From contig NZ_JAEKFT010000005.1 of NCBI RefSeq assembly GCF_018524365.1, forward strand, positions 186,001 to 250,000: 64,000 nt of DNA. The letters run 5' to 3'. Source of the DNA: Denitromonas iodatirespirans. GTDB lineage: Bacteria; Pseudomonadota; Gammaproteobacteria; Burkholderiales; Rhodocyclaceae. Positions 12,670 to 18,457 of this stretch are shown piece after piece. The translations under genes and the position numbers were made by a program. Under the pieces are notes generated by a model, which worked only from the letters and a program-made list of their open reading frames with translations, had not been told where the DNA came from and searched no databases. The first letter of the stretch is position 1. Each line of letters starts with the position of its first letter.

Positions 12670-14103
12670 ATGCTCGACAAACGCCAGTTCTTCATCGACG
12701 GCCGCTGGGTCGCCCCCGCCGTCGCGCACGATCTTGAAGTCATCGACCCCGCCACCGAAACCGCCTGCGCCGTCATCTCGCTCGGCAGCGCCGCCGACAC
12801 CGATGCCGCCGTCGCCGCCGCCCGCGCCGCCTTCCCGGCCTGGCGCGACACCCCGGTCGACGAGCGCCTCGTCCGCCTCGAAGCCCTCGCCCGCATCTAC
12901 GCCGAACGCGCCGACGAAATGGCCGCCGCCATCTCGCAGGAAATGGGCGCCCCGATCAGCCTCGCCAAGGCCGCCCAAGCCGCCGCCGGCGCCGGCCACA
13001 TCAAAACCTTCATCCGCACGCTGCGCGGCTTCGCCTTCGAGCGGCCGCTCGGCGAACACGCGCCGAACACCCGCATCCTGTACGAGCCGATCGGCGTGTG
13101 CGGCCTGATCACGCCGTGGAACTGGCCGATGAACCAGGTCACGCTCAAGGTCATCCCCGCGCTGGCCGCCGGCTGCACGGTGGTGCTCAAGCCCTCGGAG
13201 ATCGCACCGCTGTCGTCGATGCTATTCGCCGAAATGATCGCCGCTGCCGGCTTCCCGGCCGGCGTGTTCAACCTGGTCAACGGCGACGGTGCCGGGGTCG
13301 GCACGCAGTTGTCGGGCCATCCGGACGTGGACATGATCTCCTTCACCGGCTCGACCCGCGCCGGCATCGCTATCTCCAAGAACGCCGCCGACACCGTCAA
13401 GCGCGTCAGCCTGGAGCTCGGCGGCAAGGGCGCCAACCTGATCTTTGCCGATGCGGACGAGAAAGCCGTGGTGCGCGGCGTGCGCCGCTGCTTCAACAAC
13501 TCTGGCCAGTCGTGCAATGCGCCGACGCGCATGCTGGTCGAGCGCGCGCGCTACGACCAGGCGGTGGCCACCGCCGCGGACGTGGCACGCAGCACCGCCG
13601 TCGGCCAGCCCGGGCAGGAAGGCACGCATATCGGCCCGGTGGTTTCGGCCGCCCAGTTCGACAAGATCCAGCGCCTGATCCAGGCCGGCATCGACGAAGG
13701 CGCCCGCCTCGTCGCCGGCGGCCCCGGCAAGCCCGAAGGCCACGGCACCGGCTACTTCGTGCGCCCCACCGTGTTCGCCGATGTGAACAACACCATGACC
13801 ATCGCGCGCGAGGAGATCTTCGGCCCGGTACTCAGCATCATCCCCTTCGATACTGAAGACGAAGCCATCGCCATCGCCAACGACAGCCCCTACGGCCTCA
13901 CCCACTACGTGCAGACCCAGGATACGGCCCGCGCCAAGCGCGTCGCCCGCGCGCTTCGTGCCGGCATGGTCGAGGTCAACGGCCAGTCGCTCGGCGCCGG
14001 CGCGCCGTTTGGCGGGTACAAGCAGTCGGGCAACGGCCGCGAAGGCGGCGCGTGGGGGCTGGAGGAGTTTCTGGAGGTGAAGGCGGTCAGCGATTGGCAC
14101 TAG
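12670..14103 (+). CDS. NAD(P)-dependent aldehyde dehydrogenase
   Basis: A 477-residue ALDH-superfamily enzyme oxidising an aldehyde to its acid. The catalytic cysteine C282 (NNSGQSCNAPTR) and general base E249 (SLELGGKG) are both present, with PWNWP at 149-153 and FTGSTRAG at 225-232. The pattern resembles the broad-range AldA-like group, of the kind annotated as 3-succinoylsemialdehyde-pyridine or betaine-aldehyde dehydrogenase. The substrate cannot be inferred. It has its own start region behind the terminator at 12527, so it is probably a separate unit with a GGAGG ribosome site. Confidence 0.92.
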   Translation: MLDKRQFFIDGRWVAPAVAHDLEVIDPATETACAVISLGSAADTDAAVAAARAAFPAWRDTPVDERLVRLEALARIYAERADEMAAAISQEMGAPISLAKAAQAAAGAGHIKTFIRTLRGFAFERPLGEHAPNTRILYEPIGVCGLITPWNWPMNQVTLKVIPALAAGCTVVLKPSEIAPLSSMLFAEMIAAAGFPAGVFNLVNGDGAGVGTQLSGHPDVDMISFTGSTRAGIAISKNAADTVKRVSLELGGKGANLIFADADEKAVVRGVRRCFNNSGQSCNAPTRMLVERARYDQAVATAADVARSTAVGQPGQEGTHIGPVVSAAQFDKIQRLIQAGIDEGARLVAGGPGKPEGHGTGYFVRPTVFADVNNTMTIAREEIFGPVLSIIPFDTEDEAIAIANDSPYGLTHYVQTQDTARAKRVARALRAGMVEVNGQSLGAGAPFGGYKQSGNGREGGAWGLEEFLEVKAVSDWH

Positions 14104-14136
14104 GCCGCCGACCACGCGGCGGCAACGGGCGCGTCA

Positions 14137-15639
14137 TCACAACGCCTCGGCCTCGACGGTGTCGGGCCGCGCGTCGCATGATGCGCCCGCGAGGGCCACG
14201 CAGCACCGCGCCAGAATGGCAGTCGGGTCGATCAAGGGCAGACGCTGTGCGTCGATATTCGTCAGTTCGATCAGGGGCAGTTCGGTACAGCCCAGCACGA
14301 TGACCTCGGCGCCGCACGATTGCAGATGGACAATCGCATCGACCAGGTGCGCCGCGCACGCGCCCCGGGTGAAGCCGGCCTTGACGCCACGCCTGCCGTA
14401 GATGGCCTCCATGACACTCGCCTGCACCGCCCCGTCCGGCACGAGCAGTTCGAGCCCGGCGGCTTCGGTCGCGCTTTTGTACACGCCGCTGGCGACCGTT
14501 CCCGACGTCGCGAGCAATCCCACCCGCGTCACCGCAGGCAGGGTCTCGCGGATGTAGCGCACGACTTCGGAGAGCATGTTGACGATGGGGATATCCAGAT
14601 ACGGCTGAATACGATCGACATAGGCATGCGCGGTGTTGCAGGGAATGGCGACCGCGTCGGCGCCATCGGCCTTGAGCCGCATGCAGGTCGCGAGCAGCGC
14701 AATGGTCGGATCGTCGCCACTACCGATGAGATTGGCGGTACGGTCCGGAATCTGCGGATTCTGCTCGACAACCATCTTGATGTGATCCTGGTCGCGGGTC
14801 GCGGCGGTCAGCTTGACCACCTTGTGCATGAAGTCGACCGTTGCCGCGGGGCCGACACCGCCCACCACGCCGAGCTTGAACCCGCGGCGCGGCGCGGCGG
14901 CGTCGATCCCCAGTGCGTACTCGGCATACAACAGATTGGCATCGAGTATCGGCACCGGCACCTGCGGGCGAAGCGAATCGATGAGCACCGGGATTTCGGT
15001 CATGCCGGGGACGATGATGTCGGCCCCGGCGTCCACCAGATGCAGGCAGGCGTCGAGCAGCAGATGCTGGCATTCGCCACCGTGGTGGCCCGCCCGCAGG
15101 CCCCTCGCCCCATAGACCGCCTGCATGACTGTGCTCGCCTGGGTGTCGTCATCCGGGTAGATCACCTGCCCGAACCGCCCCAACTCGCGTTCGAACATGC
15201 CAGCGCGCTTGAGGTAGGTCGACGTCAGCACGCCGATCTTGCGTACGCCGACCACCTCGCTCGTGAAGTGCCGGCACAAGGCATCGAACACGCTGACCAC
15301 CTGGAGACCGACTTCGGGCGTGATCTCGCCCAGAAACGTGTGCGACAGGAAACATGGCACCAGAGCCGTATCGATGCCCCGCGCCTCCATGTCCTTGAGC
15401 GCATTGTAGATGTAGAACTTTCGGCGCGTCGGATCATAGCTGCCGTCGGCGACGATCGCTTCTTCGCCGAAGTGTCGCTGCTCGAAGGCGATATCCGTCC
15501 CCGACAGGCTCGACATACGCTGGGCGCTCCGGATCATTTTGAGCAGGACGTCGGCGCCACCCAGTGCGCCCAGACCACCGACGATGCCGAAGCGTCGTTT
15601 TTTGGGATCGAGAAAGGCGTGATGCACCACGGACTTCAT
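14137..15639 (-). CDS. Tandem-domain aspartate/glutamate racemase-family protein
   Basis: A 500-residue protein with two fused Asp/Glu racemase domains (about 15-245 and 253-485). The second has both catalytic cysteines, C334 in IPCNTAH and C451 in LGCTELP, plus the GVVGGVGPAAT N-terminal motif. The first keeps C96 (VPCFLSH, lacking the usual NTAH) but has M213 where the second cysteine belongs (PGMTEIP), so it is probably not a racemase by itself. Single-domain relatives have about 230-250 residues. It follows an acidic amino-acid symporter after 94 bp, suggesting uptake then racemisation of aspartate or glutamate. The start MKSVVHH is chosen because upstream residues look non-coding. Confidence 0.85.
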   Translation of the reverse strand: MKSVVHHAFLDPKKRRFGIVGGLGALGGADVLLKMIRSAQRMSSLSGTDIAFEQRHFGEEAIVADGSYDPTRRKFYIYNALKDMEARGIDTALVPCFLSHTFLGEITPEVGLQVVSVFDALCRHFTSEVVGVRKIGVLTSTYLKRAGMFERELGRFGQVIYPDDDTQASTVMQAVYGARGLRAGHHGGECQHLLLDACLHLVDAGADIIVPGMTEIPVLIDSLRPQVPVPILDANLLYAEYALGIDAAAPRRGFKLGVVGGVGPAATVDFMHKVVKLTAATRDQDHIKMVVEQNPQIPDRTANLIGSGDDPTIALLATCMRLKADGADAVAIPCNTAHAYVDRIQPYLDIPIVNMLSEVVRYIRETLPAVTRVGLLATSGTVASGVYKSATEAAGLELLVPDGAVQASVMEAIYGRRGVKAGFTRGACAAHLVDAIVHLQSCGAEVIVLGCTELPLIELTNIDAQRLPLIDPTAILARCCVALAGASCDARPDTVEAEAL

Positions 15640-15733
15640 TCCATTCGGGATGATCGGACGCCGGCCGCGCATCGTCGATCGAACGTTCGACGGACGACGG
15701 CCGGCTCTTTCGTGACCGCGAAGCCTCAGCCGC

Positions 15734-17089
15734 CTACGAGGCCACCCGGGCCGGGCCGGCTGCCGGCATCGACGCCTCACCCGCGGCGACCGTGCGCAGG
15801 TCGTCTGCGCGCAGAACATGAGCGGTGTCATACACCGCTTGATCGAGTTGCCCCTCGCTGCGGGCCACGAGGCAGCTCACCGCACAATCGCCCGCCACGT
15901 TCAACGCCGTGCGTGCCATGTCGAGCACGCGATCGATACCGGCAATGATCGCAATGCCTTCCAGGGGCAGCCCCACCGAGGCCAGCACCAGCGACAACAT
16001 GATCAAGCCGGCACCGGGGACGCCAGCCGTGCCGACCGAGGCCAGCGTCGCGGTCAGCACGATCGTGAGGTATTGGCCCGAGCTCAGATCGACCCCGTAG
16101 GCCTGGGCGATGAACACCGCGCAAACGCCCTGGTACAAGGCGGTGCCGTCCATATTGACGGTCGCGCCCAGCGGCAGGACGAAGCTCGACACGCTTCGCG
16201 GCACACCGAGGTTGCGCTCGGCCGCCATCATGGTGACCGGCAAGGTTCCCGAACTGGAGGTGCTGGTGAAGGCCACCATCACCGGTTCGATGCAACCCTG
16301 AAAGTAGCGCACCGGATTCAGGCGCGCCATCAGACGGATCAGGCCGCCATAGACCAGCACGGCATGAACCGCACAGCCCAGATAGACCATCCCGATCACT
16401 TTCGCCAGCGGCGCCAGTACGTCCATGCCGTAAGTGCCCGCCACCCAGACCATCAGGGCGAACACGCCATACGGAGCAAAGGAAATCACCACCGAAGTCA
16501 GCTTGTAGATCACCTCGGCCGCGGATTCGAAAAAGGCGCGCACCGGCTTGGCCGCATCGCCCGCCATCGTGATGGCCACGCCGAAGAAGATGGCGAACAC
16601 GATGATCTGCAACACATTTCCGCTGACCAGCGCCTCGACCGGATTGGTCGGCACGATACCGAGGAGAATGTCGACCAGATTCGGGGCCTCTTTGGCGGTG
16701 ACCGCCTGGGCCGAGCCGAGATCGACACCGACCCCGGGTTCAAACACCACCGCCAGTCCAAGTCCGATCGAGATCGCGACCGCCGTCGTCCCGAGATACA
16801 GGGCCACGGTCTTGACGCTGAGCCGGCCCATGGTGGAGAGGTTCTGCAGCGAGGCCACCCCGGTCACCAAAGACACGAAGATCAACGGCACGATCAGCAT
16901 CTTGATGCCACGAATGAACAGATCGCCCAGGGGCTTGACGCTCTTGGCGATGTCCGCATTCCCCGTCTGGTTCAGCAGGACGCCGATGACCAGTCCCACC
17001 ACGAGGGCGATGAATATCTGCTTCCACAGCTGCATGCCTGTCCAGAACGCAAATGGGCCGCGCGATACAGGCGTGTTTGTCCTTGTCAT
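15734..17089 (-). CDS. Dicarboxylate/acidic amino acid:cation symporter (GltP/DctA family)
   Basis: A 451-residue inner-membrane secondary transporter of the DAACS family. TSTSSSGTLP (275-284) is the HP1 serine-rich tip, NMDGTALYQ (312-320) the TM7 ion-binding motif and AGVPGAG (355-361) the HP2 tip. R393 within DMARTALNVAGD matches the arginine that binds the substrate side-chain carboxylate in glutamate/aspartate carriers, favouring an acidic substrate. It is first in a two-gene minus-strand unit with the racemase, divergent from a LysR gene with a palindrome between them. Confidence 0.92.
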   Translation of the reverse strand: MTRTNTPVSRGPFAFWTGMQLWKQIFIALVVGLVIGVLLNQTGNADIAKSVKPLGDLFIRGIKMLIVPLIFVSLVTGVASLQNLSTMGRLSVKTVALYLGTTAVAISIGLGLAVVFEPGVGVDLGSAQAVTAKEAPNLVDILLGIVPTNPVEALVSGNVLQIIVFAIFFGVAITMAGDAAKPVRAFFESAAEVIYKLTSVVISFAPYGVFALMVWVAGTYGMDVLAPLAKVIGMVYLGCAVHAVLVYGGLIRLMARLNPVRYFQGCIEPVMVAFTSTSSSGTLPVTMMAAERNLGVPRSVSSFVLPLGATVNMDGTALYQGVCAVFIAQAYGVDLSSGQYLTIVLTATLASVGTAGVPGAGLIMLSLVLASVGLPLEGIAIIAGIDRVLDMARTALNVAGDCAVSCLVARSEGQLDQAVYDTAHVLRADDLRTVAAGEASMPAAGPARVAS

Positions 17090-17258
17090 CCGAGTCTCCT
17101 GGCCCGCCCGCCGGTGCAGGGCGAACGGTGTCTGTGGTCAAACGGCGCGACGACCGGCCACACCGTCTCTCTGTCGGGCAGTCGTGCCATGTCGCAGATC
17201 TGCCGGTGAGAATCGTTATACGGAGCCCTGTCCGCTTTGCCCAATTCTTCTTTTCGAT

Positions 17259-17283
17259 GCGCCATGCAAAATTTGCATGGCGC
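17259..17283. promoter_or_regulatory. 25-bp palindrome, likely operator of the LysR-symporter pair
   Basis: GCGCCATGCAAA-A-TTTGCATGGCGC has perfect 12-bp arms around one central base. Its centre contains TGCAAAATTTGCA, a dyad fitting the LysR-type T-N11-A box. It lies 70 bp before the LysR start and 170 bp before the symporter start. Confidence 0.6.
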
Positions 17284-17352
17284 CAACCCAGCGGTTTCAC
17301 ACGGTGTAATCTGCGCCCAGTCGCACGGGTTACGCATCGATGAGGGATCTGT

Positions 17353-18273
17353 ATGGAAATGAACTGGCTGGAGGATTTCCTCACCTTGGCCGTCACGCGG
17401 AACTTCTCCCGCGCGGCCGAGTTGCGCAACGTCACCCAACCCGCCTTCAGTCGTCGCATCCGCAATCTGGAGTACTGGGTCGGCGCCGTACTGATCGACC
17501 GCAGCCTGTTCCCCGTAGGCCTGACGCAAGCCGGCGAATCCTTCCGGAAAACCGCCCAAGAAGCGCTCGACACGCTTCGCGTGGGGCGAGAAGAGGCCCA
17601 GGGCCTGGTGCCGCGAGCCGGCGAGGTGGTGTCCATCGCCGCCTCGCACACGATCGCCGTCAGCTTCTTCGGCGACTGGCATGCCGGCCTGCAGTCACGG
17701 ATCGGTCCGGTCAGGGCGCGGGTCATCGCCGATCATGTCGCCGGCTGCGTGGAGGCGCTGATTTCCGGTTCCTGCGAATTGATGCTCTCGTACAGCAGCC
17801 CCGCCGTGCCAAGCCTCAGCGAGATCGGCCGATACCCCTCGACCCCCTTGGCGCGGGATCGCCTGATTCCGGTCAGCGCCCCCGATGGCAACGGCCGCGC
17901 CCTGCACGACCTGCGACATGGCCATACGCTGCCCTACCTGTGCTATTCGAGCAACAGCTACCTGGGCCGGGTCGCGGCAGAGGTAATCGAGCGAGAAGAC
18001 TTGGCGAAGCAGCTCGAATTCAGCTATGAGTGCTCGATGTCCGACGTCCTCAAGCGTGGCGCGCTGGCCGGGGCCGGCATAGCGTGGATCCCCGAACTCG
18101 CCGTGCGTGACGAGCTGGCCGCCGGCCTGCTCGTCCAGGCCGGCGCAGACCGACACACCGCGCCTCTGACGATCACACTGTTTAGGCAATCGATGCCCGC
18201 CTGCAGCGAGGTCGAACGCATCTGGGCTGCCTGCGCCCCGGATGCCGTCGCGCCGGATGCATCGCCGGCATAG
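17353..18273 (+). CDS. LysR-family transcriptional regulator (HypT/YjiE-like)
   Basis: A 306-residue LysR protein whose N-terminus (MEMNWLEDFLTLAVTRNFSRAAELRNVTQPAF) resembles the HypT/YjiE group more than the neighbouring LysR genes. HTH at about 5-65, effector domain from about 95. A GAGGGA site stands before the ATG at 17353; an alternative ATG two codons later would change little. Divergence from the symporter-racemase unit makes control of acidic amino-acid uptake its most likely role. Confidence 0.88.
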   Translation: MEMNWLEDFLTLAVTRNFSRAAELRNVTQPAFSRRIRNLEYWVGAVLIDRSLFPVGLTQAGESFRKTAQEALDTLRVGREEAQGLVPRAGEVVSIAASHTIAVSFFGDWHAGLQSRIGPVRARVIADHVAGCVEALISGSCELMLSYSSPAVPSLSEIGRYPSTPLARDRLIPVSAPDGNGRALHDLRHGHTLPYLCYSSNSYLGRVAAEVIEREDLAKQLEFSYECSMSDVLKRGALAGAGIAWIPELAVRDELAAGLLVQAGADRHTAPLTITLFRQSMPACSEVERIWAACAPDAVAPDASPA

Positions 18274-18374
18274 CGTCGCACCGAGGTGACCGGGCGCGTG
18301 GCGCGCGAGGGCGGTGCGAATATTGTCAGCATCGCCCTCGCGCACTGTCCGCGCCTCGCTGAGTTCACCCCAAC

Positions 18375-18408
18375 GAAAAAAGCCACCCGCAGTTTCCTGC
18401 GGATGGCT
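18375..18408 (-). terminator. Rho-independent terminator of acnB
   Basis: Read on the minus strand: AGCCATCCGCAG-GAAA-CTGCGGGTGGCT followed by a run of six T. The 12-bp stem has a single G-U pair. It lies 50 bp after the acnB stop codon. Confidence 0.9.
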
Positions 18409-18457
18409 TCAATACAACCCACAGGTCGGTCTACACCGACCCGTTCAGGTCTGCGAC

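Follow-up and report, generated by a model that had tools for sequence, protein, structure and literature searches.

Racemases that need no cofactor generally rely on two cysteines, and aspartate racemases work as dimers. What, then, is the role of a gene that joins two racemase-type domains in one chain, one of them with a methionine where the second cysteine is expected? The question is raised by a gene of Denitromonas iodatirespirans that lies on the minus strand at 14137..15639 of the 64,000-nucleotide stretch analysed here (NZ_JAEKFT010000005.1, positions 186,001 to 250,000), which we call the window, and that encodes 500 amino acids from an ATG start to a stop codon at its end. On balance, we favor a model of the protein as an aspartate racemase with two domains in a single chain, of which domain 2 is catalytic and domain 1 is an inactive, fused pseudo-protomer, functioning in a module for D-aspartate uptake and catabolism. 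The model starts from the two domains, a conserved motif pattern, constraint on both halves, loss of a lobe in two groups, and a gene module, and from these we infer the substrate, the activity, the dimer-like packing, and the role of domain 1.

Two fused domains and their cysteines

An earlier note on this DNA had proposed a fusion of two racemase-type domains, and this holds: each half alone matches PF01177 (cut-off 31 bits), with 71.0 bits for the first domain (residues 15-252; 14884..15597, minus strand) and 150.7 bits for the second (residues 253-486; 14182..14883, minus strand), and the two halves share 27% identity (E 8e-28). Domain 2 alone also exceeds the subfamily cut-off of the aspartate racemase model TIGR00035 (181.9 bits, cut-off 93.1) and the equivalog cut-off of the CuyB cysteate racemase model NF052483 (238.3 bits, cut-off 190), whereas domain 1 alone falls below both (60.0 and 74.8 bits, respectively). 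The four residues singled out in the earlier note are all at the positions that it gave, on the minus strand, which it did not name: C96 in the motif VPCFLSH (codon 15352..15354), M213 in VPGMTEIP at the expected place of the second cysteine (codon 15001..15003), C334 in IPCNTAH (codon 14638..14640), and C451 in LGCTELP (codon 14287..14289). Judged by the two-cysteine criterion of the Asp/Glu racemase superfamily (PF01177), domain 2 is canonical, with C334 and C451 as first and second catalytic cysteine, and domain 1, with C96 but M213, is not. A scan of 14000-17500 for transcription signals gave one promoter-like site, against 0.8 expected, and four terminator-like sites, against 1.9 expected (sd 1.1); all four of the latter lie on the plus strand.

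Among solved structures, the best matches by sequence are single-domain aspartate racemases, with 1jfl first, and all 31 listed rows match best in domain 2. By fold, domain 2 matches the aspartate racemases 3s81, 3s7z, 2dx7, 5evc, and 1jfl at Z 29.5-30.5 (3s81 30.5, 1jfl 29.5), and domain 1 is found in rows for glutamate and allantoin racemases at Z 16-20. No PDB chain spanning both halves is among the matches listed (the 31 rows and the best 50 in each of two further listings). AlphaFold2 models of the window protein (pLDDT 88.0, pTM 0.72) and of a Sulfitobacter homologue, L027 (pLDDT 87.7, pTM 0.66), have moderate pTM values that are nonetheless higher than we would expect of two domains lacking a fixed arrangement.

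To place the cysteine pattern among homologues, we used 47 loci from one scan of a genome collection, which come from Denitromonas, Thauera, Azoarcus, Pseudomonas, Burkholderiales, Roseobacteraceae, and Bacteroidota among others. Together with loci from a family search they gave a first alignment of 50 two-domain proteins. In domain 1, the first site is Cys in 48 of these 50 and the second site in none, with M (30), I (9), V (4), L (3), F (2), A (1), and D (1) at the latter; in domain 2, both sites are Cys in 50/50. This set contains near-copies, as the pairs L003/L017 and L004/L018 have the same motifs and the same identity to the query within each pair. After thinning to 21 sequences below 70% identity, the counts are 19/21 and 0/21 for the two sites of domain 1 and 21/21 at either site of domain 2. 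Adding later loci and dropping repeats yielded 55 first and 61 second domains. All 61 second domains are C/C, while not one of the 55 first domains is; 51 of the latter have Cys followed by a hydrophobic residue (second site M 29, I 8, L 7, V 4, F 2, A 1), and the remaining four are S/S, G/I, A/D, and N/C, one each. The comparison of motif columns called for in the earlier note thus finds the C/hydrophobic first half conserved, and because the pattern recurs in homologues from Pseudomonadota and Bacteroidota, it is more than chance. The equivalent of C96 is absent from L061, L006, L090, and L091. The very divergent first domain of L091 (genome G756), with Asn at the first site, is the only one with Cys at the second and so reverses the family pattern.

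Overall, domain 1 is the more variable half, with a mean pairwise identity of 40% against 60% for domain 2 among the 21 homologues below 70% identity. C96, H100, Q54, E215, D233, N235, and Y238 of domain 1 are conserved at 90% or more in these homologues; in the wider set, many Pseudomonas rows have Gln at the H100 position.

Constraint, ancestry, and loss of a lobe

Near the window, both halves are under purifying selection. Among the window gene and its four nearest relatives (L015-L018; 10 pairs), dN/dS is 0-0.145 for domain 1 and 0.09-0.20 for domain 2; in 11 pairs with Thauera or Azoarcus genes (L020 or L021), it is 0.30-0.38 for domain 1 versus 0.17-0.24 for domain 2. From the two sets of values, domain 1 is under selection that is somewhat looser than that on domain 2 at longer distances. 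The earlier note had reasoned that the missing cysteine would be local decay if homologues usually had both cysteines in both halves. They do not (0/55 first domains), and with the low dN/dS near the window we reject the idea that M213 reflects local decay or an error in sequencing.

A tree built from 81 domain sequences by a quick method is unrooted and has several long branches (including domain 1 of L091 and L006). In it, first domains, second domains, and single-domain proteins form groups that each need one label change, with support of 97, only 62, and 96, respectively. No single-domain row falls among the domain 2 rows, with the truncated loci L059, L060, L076, and L089 left out. Several clades recur in both halves of the protein, which therefore seem to move as a unit. 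The tree fits a single old fusion. The four loci left out are of Cupriavidus type; their second domain lacks the first 23 profile positions and no first domain precedes it, and they are probably truncated genes.

From the genome searches, the two-domain family looks widespread but sparse. All counts are lower bounds, because in many genomes only part of the first-look candidates was scored. With the whole protein as query (E 1e-20), at least 12 of 150 genomes of the family matched, with two domains in G000, G110, G145, G086, and G052, half a first domain in G105, a rearranged fragment in G067, and a single domain in five. At the same threshold, at least 10 of 398 genomes of the phylum matched, three of them with two domains (the window's own, G763 with two such genes, and G919); the other seven score higher on the domain 2 profile and have no separate first-domain stretch. 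The domain 1 profile retrieved at least the window's own match, and that one only, from 369 genomes of the class (E 1e-25). At least three of 101 relatives of G086 matched at E 1e-25, namely G086 itself with two domains, G052 with a degenerate first domain, and G536 with half a first domain. The domain 2 profile matched at least 14 of 300 genomes of the order (E 1e-50), with mixed architecture. Among plasmid records, 213 matched; in 12 of them a single place covers at least 80% of the query, and three of these 12 (H1, H4, and H5) were examined.

Five homologues (L066, L093, L094, L096, and L007) lack the whole C-lobe of domain 1, where the missing cysteine would lie, and keep the N-lobe of domain 1, its last helix, and an intact domain 2. 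L066, L093, L094, and L096 come from four species of one genus and have open frames of 391-408 codons; L007 (374 codons) comes from another genus, in genome G105 of the window's own family. In the alignment, the former four have Cys at the position of C96 and His at that of H100, and L007 has neither. On the tree, the second domains of these proteins occupy two places, those of L066 and L093 with L091 and L092 and that of L007 with L005 and L006, and the C-lobe was therefore probably lost twice. The racemase active site lies between the two lobes, and a first domain of this kind therefore cannot work as an ordinary racemase. The counterpart of C73 of 1jfl is located in the N-lobe. We take C73 to be the site of a C73-C73' inter-subunit disulfide in 1jfl; if so, the N-lobe that is retained would be the part that makes the dimer, and our reading of it as the dimer contact depends on this disulfide. 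At locus L008, a frame that fuses the end of domain 1 straight to the middle of domain 2 is probably a deletion in a dying gene.

Gene neighborhood and candidate substrate

The racemase gene lies 94 bases downstream of a gene for a dicarboxylate/amino acid:cation symporter of the SDF family (15734..17089, minus strand; PF00375, 458.6 bits). The symporter reaches no NCBIfam equivalog cut-off, and sequence therefore does not settle which substrate it carries. Divergent from it lies a gene for a LysR-type regulator (17353..18273, plus strand; PF00126 and PF03466). Beside lysR, at 18226..18419, the window lacks an aspartate ammonia-lyase gene that is found at this place in six relatives (L015-L018, L020, and L021); as measured on L015, about 0.19 kb in the window corresponds to about 1.7 kb there. 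In L015 and L016, an aconitase gene is visible beyond the ammonia-lyase gene. Elsewhere in the window genome, the best ammonia-lyase-like genes score 680.8 and 665.5 bits against an equivalog cut-off of 681.2. On the other side of the racemase gene, a convergent aldehyde dehydrogenase gene (12670-14103) adjoins in the window and in L015-L017 and is about 2.7 kb away in L018.

Neighbors were counted by BLAST similarity (E 1e-15) at 48 two-domain loci, comprising 45 of the 47 scan loci (those other than the truncated L059 and L060) and L069-L071; the counts are lower bounds, as some loci have short flanks (e.g., 245 bases upstream in L048). A symporter gene lies within 800 bp in 31/48 loci, an ammonia-lyase gene within 4 kb in 17/48, and a LysR gene within 4 kb in 32/48. 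Symporter and ammonia-lyase occur together in 15 loci, and in another 15, including all ten from Bacteroidota, neither is in reach. The suggestion of the earlier note that uptake and racemisation form one module is borne out by the recurrence of the symporter. The lyases of L015, L021, and L071 are above the aspA equivalog cut-off, and those of L069, L070, and L027 are above the broader subfamily model only. In the annotation of Leisingera, Phaeobacter, and Burkholderia, lyase, racemase, symporter, and LysR genes stand side by side in varied arrangements. In G105 (L118), an ammonia-lyase gene divergent from a LysR gene is followed by the half-domain racemase, and upstream of L006 lies a similar frame for a putative lyase. 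No such neighbors were seen at L116 and L117, which are of the half-domain type of one genus. At L029 (7439-12234), genes for a methylaspartate ammonia-lyase, a CoA-transferase, a C-C lyase, and a fumarase adjoin the two-domain racemase. This cluster is a possible 3-methylaspartate pathway and suggests a related substrate at that locus.

Because the ammonia-lyase gene is often included, the module points to aspartate, and on our best reading of these sequences the second domain would be an aspartate racemase within a module for D-aspartate uptake and catabolism. In this model, the symporter would import aspartate, including D-aspartate, the racemase would convert D- to L-aspartate, and aspartate ammonia-lyase, whose gene belongs to the same module in many relatives, would deaminate L-aspartate to fumarate. 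Of the components of such a module, the window has the adjoining carrier gene and lacks the adjoining ammonia-lyase gene. This lack, the symporter scores below the NCBIfam cut-offs, the 15 of 48 loci with neither symporter nor ammonia-lyase in reach, and the neighborhoods of L029, L116, and L117 weigh against aspartate. It is conceivable, though in our judgment rather improbable, that the enzyme instead racemises cysteate, as CuyB does, or acidic amino acids broadly, an alternative that concerns the substrate only. It would account for the higher score of domain 2 on the CuyB equivalog (238.3 bits, cut-off 190) than on the aspartate racemase model (181.9 bits, cut-off 93.1), and in Phaeobacter a gene for a CuyA-type D-cysteate sulfo-lyase (L070:232-1302) lies about 4.6 kb from the two-domain racemase, which counts against aspartate for that lineage. 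However, the window genome, an assembly in 201 contigs that was searched for CuyA with TIGR01275, a family broader than NF052482, has no TIGR01275 match above cut-off (best 34.4 bits, cut-off 289.4), while the CuyA of L070 passes this model. Moreover, the ammonia-lyase gene recurs within 4 kb in 17/48 loci and also stands beside the half-domain racemase of G105, which favors aspartate.

The role of the first domain and known systems

In the favored model, C334 and C451 of domain 2 would flank the alpha-carbon on two sides and exchange its proton (1,1-proton transfer), thereby interconverting D- and L-aspartate. Domain 1 would be a duplicated and fused copy that probably no longer racemises, because Met, Ile, Leu, Val, or a similar residue stands in place of its second cysteine. 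It would probably give the catalytic domain its dimer partner in cis, mainly via the N-lobe, a partner that single-domain aspartate racemases obtain by dimerising. More tentatively, we speculate that the live domain depends on its fused dead twin as a built-in activator. Single-domain racemases need a partner; in this family the partner would have been made permanent, its chemistry dropped, and the domain pared down to the contact lobe in two lineages, with the kept C96 as part of the contact or as a redox or ligand switch, such that a pseudo-active site would control the activity of the enzyme from within its own chain. The main doubt about domain 1 is this same residue, as 51 of 55 first domains retain C96 and the four half-domain proteins of one genus retain the aligned Cys, which is more than a purely structural role predicts.

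That conservation is a reason to consider other roles for domain 1. It could be a ligand-binding regulatory domain that closes on aspartate or a related acid via C96, H100, Q54, and E215 and tunes domain 2. A kept pocket would look much like the seven residues conserved at 90% or more, and full-length first domains outnumber half-domain rows 55 to five; yet the five homologues without the C-lobe have lost half of any pocket between lobes, C96 is missing in L061, L006, L090, and L091, and the Gln at H100 in many Pseudomonas rows does not fit, so that we find this role doubtful. Alternatively, domain 1 could catalyze another reaction as an isomerase, decarboxylase, or epimerase that uses C96 as its only base. 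The earlier note had stated that known racemases need two cysteines, which goes too far: in the excerpts of PMC12661438 and PMC12838360, EcL-DER (Thr83/Cys197) and a RacX (Ala79/Cys193) are active with one, and this, with C96 in 51/55, would make a one-base enzyme conceivable. But these enzymes keep the second cysteine and not the first; according to the excerpt of PMC12838360, EcL-DER C197S is inactive, making the second cysteine essential in that relative, and PH1733, whose first site is Ala, is reported to lack activity toward Asp and Glu. As domain 1 also diverges more than domain 2 (40% versus 60% mean identity) and has lost its C-lobe in five cases, and no gene seen among the neighbors suggests a second reaction, we regard a one-base catalyst as very unlikely. 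That domain 1 is decaying and has no role seems to us hardly credible: four homologues have lost C96 and five the lobe, and in the 11 more distant pairs, those with L020 or L021, its dN/dS is the higher one (0.30-0.38 versus 0.17-0.24 for domain 2), but among the window gene and L015-L018 its dN/dS is 0-0.145, and no single-domain row stands among the domain 2 rows of the tree (drawn without L059, L060, L076, and L089).

Whichever role domain 1 has, a whole copy with only the first cysteine beside a complete copy is a natural experiment on the job of the partner subunit, and the half-lobe forms are ready-made deletion mutants. The recurring set of regulator, symporter, racemase, and ammonia-lyase suggests which bacteria can feed on D-aspartate. 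Automatic names such as 'amino acid racemase' or 'cysteate racemase' hide the two-domain architecture. The component parts are known, and for the two-domain arrangement we found no description of a fused or tandem racemase of this kind in the open-licence PubMed Central literature, which is a weak negative; in the excerpts available, PMC8142540 offers general background and PMC11602996 concerns a different racemase fold.

The module has a tested precedent in Shigella, in which orf8 (racemase) and orf9 (DcuA transporter) of the SRL island permit the use of D-aspartate (PMC6980539, excerpt). As in the window, the orf8-orf9 pair and a cluster annotated on an E. coli plasmid place a racemase beside a C4-dicarboxylate transporter with an upstream regulator; the plasmid has, in a row, a regulator, a single-domain racemase (720 bases), a C4-dicarboxylate transporter, and aspA, and thus also the ammonia-lyase. 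In contrast to the window, the plasmid racemase has a single domain, and the carrier in both is of the DcuA type or an anaerobic C4-dicarboxylate transporter rather than an SDF carrier. GltTk, by comparison, presumably belongs to the SDF family. It moves D-aspartate as well as L-aspartate (PMC6482001, excerpt), and by analogy with it an SDF-type carrier can move D-aspartate.

For the racemase itself, the aspartate racemases of Pyrococcus horikoshii (1jfl) and Salmonella (3s81) share the fold and both cysteines with domain 2 at about 40% identity, but they have one domain of about 230 residues, whereas the window protein has two domains per chain, one of them without the second cysteine. Similarly, domain 2 is above the cut-off of the CuyB model (NF052483), but that model describes a single domain of 225 positions, and the window genome has no CuyA-like gene above the TIGR01275 cut-off. 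EcL-DER and RacX resemble domain 1 in being superfamily domains with one catalytic cysteine missing; they lack the first and keep the second, while in domain 1 the situation is reversed and a complete enzyme is fused to it. Finally, we note that the pairing of a dead paralogue with a live enzyme, as proposed here for domain 1, is described for trypanosome S-adenosylmethionine decarboxylase and its prozyme (PMC6221367, excerpt). In that system, the two are separate chains of another enzyme, whereas in the window protein the partner is fused.
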